Assembly (NCBI GenBank): GCA_016784025.1
Contig: JADHVL010000007.1
Span: 87,501 to 151,500 of the forward strand
Origin: Fidelibacterota bacterium
Lineage (GTDB): Bacteria > Fidelibacterota > UBA8477 > JABMPR01
Direction: 5' to 3'
DNA: 64,000 nucleotides
Shown here: piece by piece, positions 13,192 to 19,488 of the stretch
How positions within the stretch are numbered: position 1 is the stretch's first letter
Layout: each line of letters opens with the position of its first letter
Program-made: the position numbers and the translations under genes
Notes under the pieces: model-generated
Databases searched by the model: none
Told to the model about the DNA's origin: nothing
The model's input: the letters and a program-made list of their open reading frames with translations, nothing else

Positions 13192-15018
13192 ATGTGTGGA
13201 ATAGTTGGTTACATCGGTAAGAATAATGCAATTCCTGTTGTCATTCAGGGCTTGCAGAGATTGGAATACAGGGGCTACGACTCCTGCGGTATCGCCATGA
13301 TGGATTCTGAAAAAATGATTCTGGAAAAAGTGACTGGCAAAGTCGAGGAATTGCAGGGGCTTTTGGCCCGGCAGAAAACGAACAGTTCCGTGGCTATCGG
13401 CCATACACGCTGGGCTACACATGGTCCTCCCACTTTTTCAAATGCCCATCCCCACACCAGCCAGGACGGAAAAGTAGCGCTGGTTCACAATGGTATCATC
13501 GAAAATTACAAAGTACTCAGAGATGGACTGATTAACGATGGCTACGAATTTAGCAGCGAGACAGATACAGAAGTAATAGCCGCATTGGTTAGTCAGGCAT
13601 ATCACGGAAACCTGGAACATGCCGTTAGGGAGGCACTCTCACATGTTGTGGGTGCTTATGGTCTGGCTGTAATCCACACAGATGAACCTGAAAAAATTGT
13701 ATGTACTCGCAAAGGTGCACCCCTCATTATGGCAGTGGGTGAAGATGAATTCTTTGTGGCGTCTGATGTGGCTGCCATTCTCAGTTATTCTAAGGATGTC
13801 ATATACCTTGATAATGAGGAAATAGGTATACTTACCCCTGATGGAGTGACGACCTATTCTGGTTCTGATGAGCCCATAGACAAAAAAATTCACAAAATTA
13901 CTTTCAACCTGGAAGAAATAGAGAAGGGTGGCTATGAACACTTCATGCTAAAAGAGATTTTTAGCCAACCCCAGACTATTTATGATGCCATGCGGGGTCG
14001 CTTACTCCCTGAGACTGGAGATGCCTTCCTCGGTGGAATAGATCATATGATTGGCTCAATACTACATGCAGATCAACGCTATTTTACGGCCTGCGGGACA
14101 TCCTGGCACGCCGCGCTTATTGGTGAGATGATGTTTGAGCAATTCGCTCGGATACCATGCGAAGTTGAGTATGCCAGTGAATTTCGTTATCGAGAACCCC
14201 TGGTTGATGCAAAATCCATCGTATTCGCCATTAGTCAGTCAGGAGAAACGGCGGATACTCTAGCCGCTATTCAGGAAGCCAAGACTCGTGAAGCAACTGT
14301 ACTTGGTATCTGCAATGTCGTAGGGAGCTCAATTGCCAGAGAGACCGAGGCTGGTGTGTATATTCATGCTGGGCCGGAAATTGGCGTCGCCTCCACCAAA
14401 GCCTTTACCTCCCAGGTGACAGTATTGTCTCTGCTTACCTTAAAACTGGCCCGTTTGATGGGTATGAGTAAAACAGATGGCCTTGAGATCAGTCAGGCTA
14501 TGCAAAAACTACCTGAAAACGTTGAGTGGGTATTGAAACAAGCTGACCAAATCGCCGAAATAGCCAAACTATACGCTGATGCTGCGAACTTTCTCTATCT
14601 GGGTCGTGGTGTCAACTTCCCTGTGGCGCTTGAAGGGGCTTTGAAGCTCAAAGAAATTTCATATATCCATGCTGAAGGCTACCCAGCCGCTGAGATGAAG
14701 CATGGCCCCATTGCCCTGATTGACAAGTCCATGCCTATCGTGGCAATTGCTCCCCAGGATAAAACCTACGATAAAATTATCAGTAATATCGAAGAAGTGA
14801 AAGCCAGACATGGTCGAGTGATTGCCCTGGCTACAGAAGGGGATACCAGAATAAAGGATATTGCGGACCACGTACTCTATGTGCCCCCTGCCTTATCATT
14901 TACAGCCCCCATTTTGAACGTGATACCTCTACAGCTTCTCTCGTATTATGTTGCTGTTGAACGTGGTTGCGATGTGGATCAACCGAGAAATTTAGCAAAG
15001 AGTGTCACGGTGGAGTAA
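13192..15018 (+). CDS. glmS: Glutamine-fructose-6-phosphate aminotransferase
   Basis: A 608-residue enzyme making glucosamine-6-phosphate from fructose-6-phosphate and glutamine, the entry step to UDP-GlcNAc for peptidoglycan and lipopolysaccharide. The Ntn amidotransferase domain starts MCGIVGYIG, with the catalytic Cys directly after Met. Conserved stretches include GHTRWATHG and VHNGIIENY. The two SIS domains contain ACGTSWHA, ISQSGETADT and the STKAFTSQ loop, and the C-terminus is LAKSVTVE. There are only 50 nt upstream, so there is no room for a glmS ribozyme. An LpoA-like gene follows after 3 nt. Confidence 0.98.
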   Translation: MCGIVGYIGKNNAIPVVIQGLQRLEYRGYDSCGIAMMDSEKMILEKVTGKVEELQGLLARQKTNSSVAIGHTRWATHGPPTFSNAHPHTSQDGKVALVHNGIIENYKVLRDGLINDGYEFSSETDTEVIAALVSQAYHGNLEHAVREALSHVVGAYGLAVIHTDEPEKIVCTRKGAPLIMAVGEDEFFVASDVAAILSYSKDVIYLDNEEIGILTPDGVTTYSGSDEPIDKKIHKITFNLEEIEKGGYEHFMLKEIFSQPQTIYDAMRGRLLPETGDAFLGGIDHMIGSILHADQRYFTACGTSWHAALIGEMMFEQFARIPCEVEYASEFRYREPLVDAKSIVFAISQSGETADTLAAIQEAKTREATVLGICNVVGSSIARETEAGVYIHAGPEIGVASTKAFTSQVTVLSLLTLKLARLMGMSKTDGLEISQAMQKLPENVEWVLKQADQIAEIAKLYADAANFLYLGRGVNFPVALEGALKLKEISYIHAEGYPAAEMKHGPIALIDKSMPIVAIAPQDKTYDKIISNIEEVKARHGRVIALATEGDTRIKDIADHVLYVPPALSFTAPILNVIPLQLLSYYVAVERGCDVDQPRNLAKSVTVE

Positions 15019-15021
15019 TTC

Positions 15022-16941
15022 ATGCGGAAACTATTTTTACTACTCATCGTCCCGCTCATTATTTTTGGAGCACGTCCAGATTTTAAGCAGGGTGTTTCAC
15101 TTTATAATCAAGGCGCATATTGGGAGGCTCTGCGAGTTTTTGCAGAACTGGCTGATGAAGAAGTCTCACTCAATCTTCAGCGTTCAGCCTCGTCCTACAT
15201 GAGAATCAAATGTTATAATAAGCTGGGTTTTAGCCAACGAGCGCTCATGCTCGCCAGAGACTTTTCCATATCTTATCCTGGGAGTGAATACCTGGATGAC
15301 CTTGAATACCTCCTTGGTGAGATTCACCTTGATCTGGGTGATGCCCGTGAAGCGGCCTGGTATTTTGCTTCTTCTGCCATTACGACGAAGGATAAAAAAA
15401 TCAGAAAAGCTGCCCGTGAATTGGCAGAATCATTGGTGGGGACTGCTTGTGACCAGGATGATTTACATGCCCTGGCTGGCAGATCAATTGACCGGACTGG
15501 ACAATATGTTGCACTCCTGGTAGCCCAACGTTTTTTAATGGACGGCAATAGGGGAGAATCAATCAGTATTCTCTTCAATATGCGTCCCTACATCAAGGAT
15601 GATGATCTACGTAAGAAAGCCATTTCCCTCTATGATAGATTTGGTTCAAGTCAAACTGACACATTGCATATCTCTGTCGTTCTGCCACTTACTGGACCGC
15701 TAGGAGAAATTGGCGGAACCATGCTGGATGGGATAAAATTTTCAGCGATGAATTTCATGGATAGTACTGATCAAGGTATTGAACTGCATATCTACGATAA
15801 TGAGAGCAAATTGTCTGAAACAATTAGTATTGCCAGAAAGGTGAGAGATGATCCTCGGGTTATTGCTCAGATTGGTCCTTTAACCAATGAAAATGTTAAG
15901 GGTACAGCTGCAGTCCTGGAGGGTCACTCCATACCCATCATTGTTCCAACTGCTACTGAAAATCATTTGACTAACTTATCCAAGGGTATTTTTCAATTCC
16001 GCTCCACAAGGGAACGTAAAGCTATTGCTATGGCGGAATATGCAGTGCAGATCCTGGGACTGGAAACGTTTGCCATTATCGCACCCTCAACTGAGTATGG
16101 ACAGCAGTTCGCAGATAACTTTGCCCTGCGAGTCGATGAATTGGGTGGTATTATCCAATATCAGGGTTGGTATGTGGGTGAACCCACTGACCTCAGCAGG
16201 GTTCATTTTCGAAGAATCAGAGAACAGGGACTCGAAGAACTCTACATAAAATTTCAAGCAGACTCTTTGCGTCTGGACTCCTTACTCATTGGAATGATTA
16301 CTGAGGGGGATTCTGTAAATGCGTATGAGGAGCAACTCAATCCAATTTTCAAGAAGTCCAGACCTACACGGGGAGATTCGTTAGGCGTTGAGTTGTCACA
16401 CATCGATGGAATATTTTTCCCCATCCATGAAGGCAATATGCGTTATATCCTCTATCAGCTTGCCAGCAATAATCTGAATACTCATATCCTTGGTGATGAG
16501 AATTGGCTGGATAAAGACATTCTGAAGAAAGACGCAAGTTATATCACAGATTTAACCATTGTTGCTGGAGATAGACTGGGATTTGAAACAATCAGCCCTG
16601 CATTCTCCAATGAGTATGTTCGCATATTTAAACATCGTCCTGAGCAGTATGATTTGATGGGCTACGATGTGATGGGGATGTTGCTTGAAGCGGCCCAATA
16701 TGCCGGTGGCTCTGGCAATAAACTCTGGGAGGCCATGATAAACTCTCCCAATTATGAAGGCCTGATTCATCAGGTACAGTGGGGTGGCGCTACCAGACGC
16801 GAGAATGATCTGGTCTTTCTAATGGATTACGTTGAGGATTCCTTTGAATTGACAGGATACTATGATAATTCCGGATTCTTCTCCATGGATAGTCTTGGTA
16901 CGGATAGTCTTGATACGGAGTCAACATCGGAGATCGAATAG
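15022..16941 (+). CDS. TPR plus periplasmic-binding-fold protein, LpoA-like
   Basis: A 639-residue exported protein with signal MRKLFLLLIVPLIIFGA. Residues about 20-205 are helical repeats (TPR-like: QGVSLYNQGAYWEALRVFAEL). From about 215 it has a Leu/Ile/Val-binding receptor fold (ISVVLPLTGPLGEIGGTMLDGIKF; IAQIGPLTNENVKGTAAVLE; IIVPTATENHLTNLSKGIFQF). It ends in a Ser/Asp/Thr-rich tail. No ABC permease or ATPase gene is near, so it is probably not a transporter receptor. The same TPR plus receptor layout is found in LpoA, the activator of penicillin-binding protein PBP1A, and the neighbours (glmS, pgeF, uppP) are cell-wall genes. I infer a peptidoglycan-synthase activator-like role. There is no lipobox Cys at the signal peptide end, unlike E. 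coli LpoA. Confidence 0.75.
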   Translation: MRKLFLLLIVPLIIFGARPDFKQGVSLYNQGAYWEALRVFAELADEEVSLNLQRSASSYMRIKCYNKLGFSQRALMLARDFSISYPGSEYLDDLEYLLGEIHLDLGDAREAAWYFASSAITTKDKKIRKAARELAESLVGTACDQDDLHALAGRSIDRTGQYVALLVAQRFLMDGNRGESISILFNMRPYIKDDDLRKKAISLYDRFGSSQTDTLHISVVLPLTGPLGEIGGTMLDGIKFSAMNFMDSTDQGIELHIYDNESKLSETISIARKVRDDPRVIAQIGPLTNENVKGTAAVLEGHSIPIIVPTATENHLTNLSKGIFQFRSTRERKAIAMAEYAVQILGLETFAIIAPSTEYGQQFADNFALRVDELGGIIQYQGWYVGEPTDLSRVHFRRIREQGLEELYIKFQADSLRLDSLLIGMITEGDSVNAYEEQLNPIFKKSRPTRGDSLGVELSHIDGIFFPIHEGNMRYILYQLASNNLNTHILGDENWLDKDILKKDASYITDLTIVAGDRLGFETISPAFSNEYVRIFKHRPEQYDLMGYDVMGMLLEAAQYAGGSGNKLWEAMINSPNYEGLIHQVQWGGATRRENDLVFLMDYVEDSFELTGYYDNSGFFSMDSLGTDSLDTESTSEIE

Positions 16942-17675
16942 GGGTTATCAAACCTCAAAAACTATCTTACCCCGCACAAATTTCGCTGGGATTCTCAAAT
17001 AGGCTGGGCGGACTAAGTCCAAACCCCTTCCAGGGATTGAATATGTCTGTTTCACGGGGTGATAGTAAAGAAAATGTTACTGCAAACCGTCAAATCTTCT
17101 TGAAAGAGTTCGGGATTGATGAAGCTCAGCTGGCTGAACCCCTTCAGGTGAGTCAGGATGGAATTCAAATTGTTGAAGCTCCTGGTGAATATGCAGGTCG
17201 AGATGCTCTGATTACAACTCAGCCAGGTATATTCCTGCGTGTCCTCACTGCCGATTGTTCACCTATTCTCATATGGTCAGAGCAAATAGTAGCGGCTGTT
17301 CACTCTGGATGGCAAGGCTCAGAGCTAGATATTCTTGGACAAACCCTGAAGAAAATGCACAGTAAAATGGGTGTCGAGATAGAGTCCTTACATTTGGCCA
17401 TTGGACCTGGTTTGTCTCAGGCCAATTTTGAAGTGGGACCGGAATTTAGTGATAAATTTGCTTTGAAGTATTTATCACCACATCTAAATAGTGGAAGGTT
17501 TTTATTTGATAACAATGCCCATTTGAGAGATACAGCCATTCAATTGGGGGTTCCAGCAAATCAGATTGAAATCTTACCTTTTTGCAGTTATAGAGATGAT
17601 GAATTATTTTTTTCCCATCGTCGCGATGGCGGAACTACTGGAAGAATGATGTCAGTCATAGGAATTAACAAATGA
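16938..17675 (+). CDS. pgeF: Peptidoglycan editing factor PgeF (YfiH), unusual start
   Basis: Family: YfiH/PgeF, a cytoplasmic enzyme removing wrongly built muropeptide precursors, formerly called laccase domain. The conserved N-terminus LGFSNRLGGLSPNPFQGLN is encoded at 16986-17042, upstream of the first usable TTG (17037) or ATG (17043). Between an in-frame stop near 16911 and 17037 there is no ATG, GTG or TTG. ATA at 16938 overlaps the previous stop (ATAG), has GGAG (16929-16932) 5 nt before it and gives 245 residues, the normal family length. Cys107 (LTADCSP) and His122 (VHSGWQG) are present, but the expected QVHG histidine reads QVSQ. The C-terminus FFSHRRDG-TTGRM is typical. ATT 16980 or CTG 16986 are other possible starts. 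Confidence 0.85.
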   Translation: MGVIKPQKLSYPAQISLGFSNRLGGLSPNPFQGLNMSVSRGDSKENVTANRQIFLKEFGIDEAQLAEPLQVSQDGIQIVEAPGEYAGRDALITTQPGIFLRVLTADCSPILIWSEQIVAAVHSGWQGSELDILGQTLKKMHSKMGVEIESLHLAIGPGLSQANFEVGPEFSDKFALKYLSPHLNSGRFLFDNNAHLRDTAIQLGVPANQIEILPFCSYRDDELFFSHRRDGGTTGRMMSVIGINK

Positions 17676-18487
17676 GTCCTCTTAGTGCAGCAATCCTGGC
17701 CATTGTACAAGGTCTTACAGAATTTCTACCAGTTTCAAGTTCTGGTCATCTCGTATTAGGCGAAGCCCTCTTGGGATCTCATTCGTTCGGAAACAGCATT
17801 GCTTTTGAGCTGGTGGTTCATCTCGGAACCTTTCTAGCGGTTCTAGTGATCTTTTGGAAAGATATTTTAAATTTGGGACGAGTATTTTTTACCCAGCTTG
17901 TGAAACCTGGGACCTGGTCATCAGAGTATAAAAATAATGATGGATTTAGAATAAGCGTCTTGATGATTGTTGCCATGTTGCCGGCAGGTTTTATTGGACT
18001 GCTGCTCCGAGATCAGATTAGCGAACTCTTCTCCCAGCCTTTCATGGTTAGCATAGCCCTCATATTTACAGGATCCATGCTCTTATCAACCATGTTTTTC
18101 AAGAAATCTGACAAACCAATCGACTTGAAAAAGGCTCTGCTCATCGGTTTTGCTCAAGCTCTGGCTCTGGTGCCAGGAATATCTCGTTCAGGATCTACTA
18201 TTTCCATGGCTCTGGGGCTGGGTATTAAGCAGGAGGAAGCTGCACGATTCAGTTTTATCATGGTGCTGCCTCTCATTGTCGCTGCTACCATTCTCGAGTT
18301 TCTTGATCTCATCAAGGTGGGTATTTCATCAGACGAAGTTTCAATTCTGCTAATCGGACTAATCGTTTCATTTGTGGTGGGAATATTTAGCCTGAAGTGG
18401 CTACTTCAATTGCTGAAACGCGGTAAATTTCATTATTTCGCCTGGTATTGTTTTACCATCGCCATTATAGGATTGTTTTACTTTTAA
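17672..18487 (+). CDS. uppP: Undecaprenyl-diphosphate phosphatase
   Basis: A 271-residue polytopic membrane protein (BacA/UppP family) that dephosphorylates undecaprenyl diphosphate and so recycles the lipid carrier for peptidoglycan and surface polysaccharides. Both signature motifs are present: GLTEFLPVSSSGHL near the N-terminus and PGISRSGSTI at about residue 170. About eight hydrophobic helices are visible and the length is standard. Its ATG overlaps the pgeF stop (ATGA), so the two cell-wall genes are translationally coupled. It can also confer low-level bacitracin tolerance, a family property only. Confidence 0.97.
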   Translation: MSPLSAAILAIVQGLTEFLPVSSSGHLVLGEALLGSHSFGNSIAFELVVHLGTFLAVLVIFWKDILNLGRVFFTQLVKPGTWSSEYKNNDGFRISVLMIVAMLPAGFIGLLLRDQISELFSQPFMVSIALIFTGSMLLSTMFFKKSDKPIDLKKALLIGFAQALALVPGISRSGSTISMALGLGIKQEEAARFSFIMVLPLIVAATILEFLDLIKVGISSDEVSILLIGLIVSFVVGIFSLKWLLQLLKRGKFHYFAWYCFTIAIIGLFYF

Positions 18488-18489
18488 CC

Positions 18490-19488
18490 ATGTCCCCAAA
18501 ATTAAGTTATAGTCAGGTAATTTCTGATCTACAGGCAGGGAAACTGGGTGGTCTGTATTTCGCCATGGGTTCCGACTACTACCTTTATAGAAAATTTCTG
18601 AAGGAATTTCAATCGACTTTCAGGCAACACTTTGGTGAAAACGCCAACCTGGTTCAACGCTGGGGTGCAGAGCTCAAACTTGCAACGGATGTAAGCAATT
18701 TGCTTGGGGGAGGAGGTCTCTTTTCTTCTGCAAGTCTTATCATGCTTCATGAAATTCAGGATGCAGGGACCGCAGTCAAAACCAAACTCTCTGAAATGCT
18801 GGGAAATTTGCCTGAAGATACCGTAGTACTGGCCCATTACTCAGTCAGCGATTTTAGAAAGGCAAAGTGGCTTGACGCCATACAGAATGTGGCTCAAGTA
18901 GTTTCTATGACCAGTCCGGAAGCAGCACAATTACCTGCTTTGGTGGGTAAGATGGCAACTCAGCGAAACCTTAAGATAGATGAAGCCGGGATATATCGCC
19001 TCATCGAACTGAGCAGTGGTGAATTAGCCATCATAGACAATGAGCTTGAGAAGATTACACTCTTCCTGGAAGATGTATCTGAGCCGGTTGGTCGAGGAGT
19101 AGTAGATCAGGTGGCCGGGGCCATAGAAAATGCTCAGGCTTCACAGTTTATCGATGCAATCTTCAATCGGGATCGTCGGGTTGCAATCCAGACCTTGGTT
19201 GAAATTGATCATCAAGGGAAGGAAGGACTGCCATATTTGGTCTCCCTCCTTTATAATTGTCTTATTCAGCTCATGGCCCTAAGGGAATCACCAGAGGCCA
19301 GGAAAACTATCAGTCAGGGTGCCACATCCTGGTTTTTTCTAAGCAAATTGGGGTCTGTATCAAAAAATTATACTCTAGAAGAATTACAGGAAGCCACACG
19401 GGAGCTGGCAAATCTGGACTTGAAGTTTAGATTGGGTTCCATGGATACACTAACTGCTTTTACTGAATGGGTATCAAAGGTTGTTTAA
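18490..19488 (+). CDS. holA: DNA polymerase III delta subunit
   Basis: A 332-residue clamp-loader subunit HolA, which opens the beta clamp. Family features are weak in sequence but clear in layout: an N-terminal GGLYFAMGSDYYLYRKFLKEF stretch, a degenerate AAA+ part without Walker A, RNLKIDEAGIYRLIELSSGELAIIDNELEKI (the usual conserved L-x-NELEK region), and a helical C-terminal collar domain. I chose ATG 18490, two nt after the uppP stop, over an upstream in-frame ATG at 18448 that lies inside uppP. Its position before the sigma factor gene appears to have no functional meaning. Confidence 0.88.
   Translation: MSPKLSYSQVISDLQAGKLGGLYFAMGSDYYLYRKFLKEFQSTFRQHFGENANLVQRWGAELKLATDVSNLLGGGGLFSSASLIMLHEIQDAGTAVKTKLSEMLGNLPEDTVVLAHYSVSDFRKAKWLDAIQNVAQVVSMTSPEAAQLPALVGKMATQRNLKIDEAGIYRLIELSSGELAIIDNELEKITLFLEDVSEPVGRGVVDQVAGAIENAQASQFIDAIFNRDRRVAIQTLVEIDHQGKEGLPYLVSLLYNCLIQLMALRESPEARKTISQGATSWFFLSKLGSVSKNYTLEELQEATRELANLDLKFRLGSMDTLTAFTEWVSKVV

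Follow-up and report, generated by a model that had tools for sequence, protein, structure and literature searches.

How is translation initiated when a reading frame has no ATG, GTG or TTG ahead of the conserved N-terminus of its product? This question is raised by pgeF in the window, the 64,000-nucleotide stretch of a Fidelibacterota contig that was analysed. The gene lies between an exported protein and a membrane protein.

15022-16941, plus strand: upstream gene, encoding a Peripla_BP_6 / LppC-like exported protein (PF13458, E 1.4e-20; PF04348, E 3e-8).
16939-16941, plus strand: TAG, the stop codon of the upstream gene.
16926-17675, plus strand: pgeF (peptidoglycan editing factor, YfiH/PF02578), 249 aa if ATC 16926 initiates.
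17672-18487, plus strand: downstream open reading frame for an integral membrane protein, by inspection of its sequence a putative undecaprenyl-diphosphatase (uppP/bacA).

The pgeF frame is open between TGA 16911-16913 and its own stop at 17673-17675, which is overlapped by the ATG of the downstream open reading frame. From the in-frame stop at 16911 on, the earliest ATG, GTG or TTG is TTG 17037, as a sequence-only reading of this DNA had pointed out. Counted from ATC 16926, PgeF has 249 residues and a cysteine at position 111. The protein matches Pfam family PF02578 with an E-value of 2.8e-58 over positions 2-237 of the 238 in the profile, and NCBIfam TIGR00726 with an E-value of 4.5e-39, a score of 134.1 bits that misses the equivalog cut-off of 141.15. 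The alignment with YfiH homologues in the PDB begins at residue 15-21 of PgeF, counted in its 249-aa form. A search for an RNA element at the site gave no Rfam match within 15000-19000.

The comparison set was composed of 19 genomes of one genus of uncultured Neomarinimicrobiota, searched over the whole genome. pgeF is present in 18 of the 19, with a single match per genome, and the copies of the 17 other species share 57-86% protein identity with that of the window. The upstream neighbour is the same gene in all 18, its stop is overlapped by pgeF in a constant phase, and none of them has an ATG, GTG or TTG up to and including the codon that overlaps this stop. The claim that pgeF has a non-canonical start overlapping the upstream gene is borne out here, as no canonical start stands at the conserved N-terminus in any of the 18 members. 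Four species (L009, L010, L013 and L016) have a GTG two codons past the overlap codon. Outside of the genus, a canonical codon is found nearby, ATG in L019, L020 and L022 and GTG in L021, and the ATG of L019 is at almost the same place as the ATC of the window.

The genome that contains the window is a draft in 47 contigs, and the loss of an ordinary ATG to a sequencing or assembly error had been named as a possible cause of the missing start. Because the same arrangement is shared by 17 other genomes at the identities given above, such an error is effectively ruled out. A shorter PgeF, with its start at the earliest canonical codon, either TTG 17037 or ATG 17043, could draw on the conserved ATG of the LNM motif. 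However, it would drop the conserved GF(S/T)xRxGGxSxxPF, which is part of the Pfam domain and of the solved YfiH structures, and purifying selection on the codons upstream of TTG 17037 is as strong as in the remainder of pgeF. In the 31 codons that follow the upstream stop, pN/pS among the 18 species is 0.36 when read in the pgeF frame, against 1.22 and 2.09 for the two alternative frames, with variation concentrated at third positions; in the remainder of the gene it is 0.32. The mean synonymous difference is ~0.75, which is saturated, in both the N-terminal stretch and the remainder, and conservation of the N-terminus is therefore not the product of recent common ancestry alone. The species of a genus do share ancestry, and synonymous saturation limits the objection that follows from it. 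Judged by its substitution pattern, the stretch before TTG 17037 is translated, and the shorter PgeF is highly improbable.

Two sites at the end of the upstream gene carry a GGAG followed after 5 nt by a possible initiator.

16917-16920, plus strand: GGAG, Shine-Dalgarno sequence of the proposed ATC start, with the 5-nt spacer TCAAC.
16926-16928, plus strand: ATC, the proposed start codon (read as fMet), ATC in 17 of the 18 species of the genus.
16929-16932, plus strand: second GGAG, located in PgeF codons 2-3 and in Ser-Glu codons of the upstream protein.
16938-16940, plus strand: ATA, probably an internal Ile codon (ATA 11, GTA 6, CTG 1 across the genus).

The first GGAG sits 12 nt upstream of the second, and the ATC is four codons upstream of ATA 16938. 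The sequence-only reading had placed the start at this ATA, which forms ATAG together with the upstream stop; such coupling would imply termination-reinitiation with a relaxed choice of codon. The letters on which it was built are all present, namely GGAG 16929-16932, the 5-nt spacer ATCGA, ATA 16938 and the ATAG overlap with TAG 16939-16941, and the product counted from ATA does have 245 residues with the cysteine at position 107. All 18 show an NTAR or NTGA overlap with unchanged phase, and several relatives share the GGAG 5 nt upstream. The alignment of close relatives, which had been proposed as a check on conservation of the ATA, goes against it, as six species have GTA there and one has CTG, and GTA is not one mismatch from ATG. 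The Shine-Dalgarno sequence is lost or weak in 8 of the 18 (-2.9 kcal/mol or weaker), and the first base of its GGAG varies between species (G in 10, A in 8). Moreover, the overlap codon is composed of the last base of an upstream Glu (once Asp) codon and the first two bases of the stop. Its letters are set by the upstream frame (GAA or GAG plus stop) and need no special explanation. Initiation at ATA 16938 is thus unlikely, and with ATC kept in 17 of the 18, the start is probably to be moved from ATA 16938 to ATC 16926.

At the latter position, 17 species have ATC and one has CTT. The exact GGAG precedes it in 14 of the 18, and some Shine-Dalgarno sequence of -5.9 kcal/mol or stronger is found in all 17 species with ATC. 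Where GGAG is altered, in three species, it is replaced by GAGGTGG (L006), GGGGG (L014) or AGAGGTGA (L017). L009, the sole species without ATC, is also the one without an upstream Shine-Dalgarno sequence, which leaves the site with one in 17/18, and its GTG is six codons downstream of the ATC position. Both elements are conserved between species beyond what coding needs. The G of GGAG is a wobble base in the upstream gene, kept in 17/18 across Thr, Val, Ala, Met, Pro and Leu codons, and the A of ATC is another, kept in 17/18 across Thr, Pro and Ser. Among the 83 columns of the upstream gene in which the amino acid varies, these two are the most constrained, the next being kept in 16/17 and the one after that in 13/17. 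Of the 487 upstream-gene positions in the same phase, the ATC site is alone in having a start codon, near-cognate or canonical, that no more than one species lacks. Within pgeF itself, this column is the sole invariant ATA/ATC/ATT/CTG codon column (at 17/18 for ATC), and residues 2-4 (GDR) are only moderately conserved. The 5-nt spacing is within the normal range of the window genome, which peaks at 5-8 nt, and the 3' end of the 16S rRNA is ordinary (GGATCACCTCCTTTCT).

It is very likely that pgeF initiates at ATC 16926 by means of GGAG 16917-16920, through an AUC start that would be weak and sensitive to IF3. IF3, the product of infC, is the factor that polices start codons, and it is present in the genus. 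The GGAG near the end of the upstream coding sequence would recruit ribosomes, and the fMet-tRNA would then initiate on AUC with a mismatch at the third position. Because this pairing is imperfect, initiation is expected to be weak and should respond to IF3. With its start at this ATC, pgeF would overlap the upstream gene by 16 nt. The overlap is short and pgeF is shifted by -1 against the upstream frame, which would also suit a programmed -1 frameshift that fuses the upstream protein to PgeF, but no X XXY YYZ slippery motif is present and the overlap codons differ among species. A signal-like sequence stands at the start of the upstream protein, whereas PgeF is cytoplasmic, and the GGAG-N5-ATC spacing fits a start site; a frameshift is scarcely credible. 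The preferred ATC start may not be the only one in use throughout the genus. As the overlap region has to satisfy two frames and perhaps also two Shine-Dalgarno sequences, initiation at ATA (11 species) or at the GTG two codons after the overlap (four species) may apply.

pgeF joins the conserved non-canonical starts already known from infC, pcnB, sigR and ccpN. infC starts with AUU, AUC or AUA, being ATC in Streptomyces (PMC5472188) and AUA in S. aureus (PMC13009471). Like pgeF, it combines a near-cognate ATN codon with a Shine-Dalgarno sequence, and in this genus the codon is the same ATC. infC is autoregulated by its own product, whereas PgeF is not an initiation factor. In Streptomyces, sigR has a GTC start that was proven by experiment and is repressed by IF3 (PMC5472188). 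It shares with pgeF a non-canonical start and a ribosome-binding site conserved across a genus, although its codon and function are different and the pgeF start is predicted from sequence. In staphylococci, ccpN (AUA) and cvfC1 (AUU) reach, in poor medium, ~10% of the expression obtained with AUG (PMC13009471). Their non-canonical starts are conserved, as is that of pgeF, and have a strong Shine-Dalgarno sequence. They were mapped by ribosome profiling and the Shine-Dalgarno sequence is extended, whereas that of pgeF, read from the DNA, is mostly four bases. The E. coli pcnB gene has an AUU start and is held low by this inefficient codon, as cited in PMC9410913; it is another gene than pgeF, and the codon is AUU rather than AUC. 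By analogy with infC, sigR, ccpN and cvfC1, the output of pgeF would be low and IF3-dependent.

Other genes of the genus with such starts were sought by a coding-potential scan for frames with a conserved N-terminus before any canonical codon, followed by collection of genus-wide loci. The scan covered 1.94 Mb of the window genome and 0.4 Mb of G017, and the number of genes with non-canonical starts is accordingly a lower bound. Three companion genes came out of this work and are listed here together with infC, which served as an internal control.

G000:C14:19278-19820, minus strand (L054): infC, ATC start; genus loci L049-L063.
G000:C14:31470-31961, minus strand (L178): ruvC, putative CTG start; genus loci L164-L181.
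G000:C7:25310-26467, minus strand (L193): lpxB, putative ATA start; genus loci L182-L197.
G000:C12:56280-57293 (L243): rluD-like pseudouridine synthase gene, probable CTG start; other loci L244-L259.

infC was found in 15 genomes of the genus and begins with ATC in every one, a short distance downstream of a GGGAGAGA Shine-Dalgarno sequence, so the genus initiates at ATC in the textbook case. In more distant relatives of the phylum, the equivalent position is ATT, ATA or ATC. ruvC is without a canonical start, and a CTG after TGGAGTARNNN is invariant in all 18 species of the genus. This CTG is also found in L224, L226 and L227, which are of the same order, and several other members of the phylum have ATG. 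In lpxB, no canonical start is found just before the conserved N-terminus. Its ATA is invariant (16/16) while the flanking codons vary, and its Shine-Dalgarno sequence looks weak. The rluD-like gene probably starts at a CTG that is invariant in 17/17, mostly after TTAGGAA or similar. The proposed initiator is the sole invariant ATA/ATC/ATT/CTG codon column in ruvC and lpxB, as in pgeF; in infC it is the only such column at 15/15, with two others at 14/15. Read from these alignments, at least three housekeeping genes besides pgeF and infC keep putative starts that are odd and invariant in the genus.

Across 139 ortholog pairs between the window genome and G017, infC alone is clearly non-canonical; a raw candidate list, composed mostly of antisense frames, was set aside. 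Non-canonical starts are rare in this genome, and a general loss of start-codon stringency is ruled out on this ground. A translational regulon composed of pgeF (ATC), ruvC (CTG), lpxB (ATA), the rluD-like gene (CTG) and infC (ATC), gated by IF3 or by start-codon stringency, is a tentative and rather doubtful proposal.

Three further frames were noticed. At G000:C11:43365-44111, a conserved-looking N-terminus (INHIYLDATGGNS) lies ahead of the first GTG, and an ATA right after TAA is a possible start. An S41-peptidase-like frame at G000:C47:7594-8649 has a lipoprotein-like signal sequence before any canonical start, and its close orthologue is found in G007 only (92%). L067 (G000:C4:19664-20713), which by reading of its sequence is presumably the release factor 2 gene prfB, has no start codon in frame, which is what the known programmed frameshift would lead one to expect.

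Gene finders limited to ATG, GTG and TTG would trim 37 residues off PgeF, including the conserved family motif, and ruvC, lpxB and rluD in the genus would suffer a similar truncation. That weak starts are so deeply conserved suggests selection for weakness, and a regulatory role of non-canonical starts would thereby become testable beyond infC. The codon-invariance test used here takes as initiator the Ile or Leu codon column that stays constant despite saturation at synonymous sites. Wherever enough genomes of a lineage are available, it can locate such starts at little cost.

The product of pgeF in this genus has a further peculiarity. In E. coli YfiH, Cys107 and His124 are catalytic, and His71 contacts the lactyl group of MurNAc (PMC8844914). 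The equivalents of Cys107 and His124 are kept in 18/18 genus members, within ADC and VHSGW or IHSGW. The equivalent of His71 is lost in 18/18 (L001-L018, the copy of the window included), where Q(V/I)H has become Q(V/I)(S/G), and the other aligned relatives outside of the genus keep it. The protein of this genus is best described as a PgeF homologue in which editing activity is not to be assumed. Because pgeF is under purifying selection, a changed enzyme is more likely than a decayed one.
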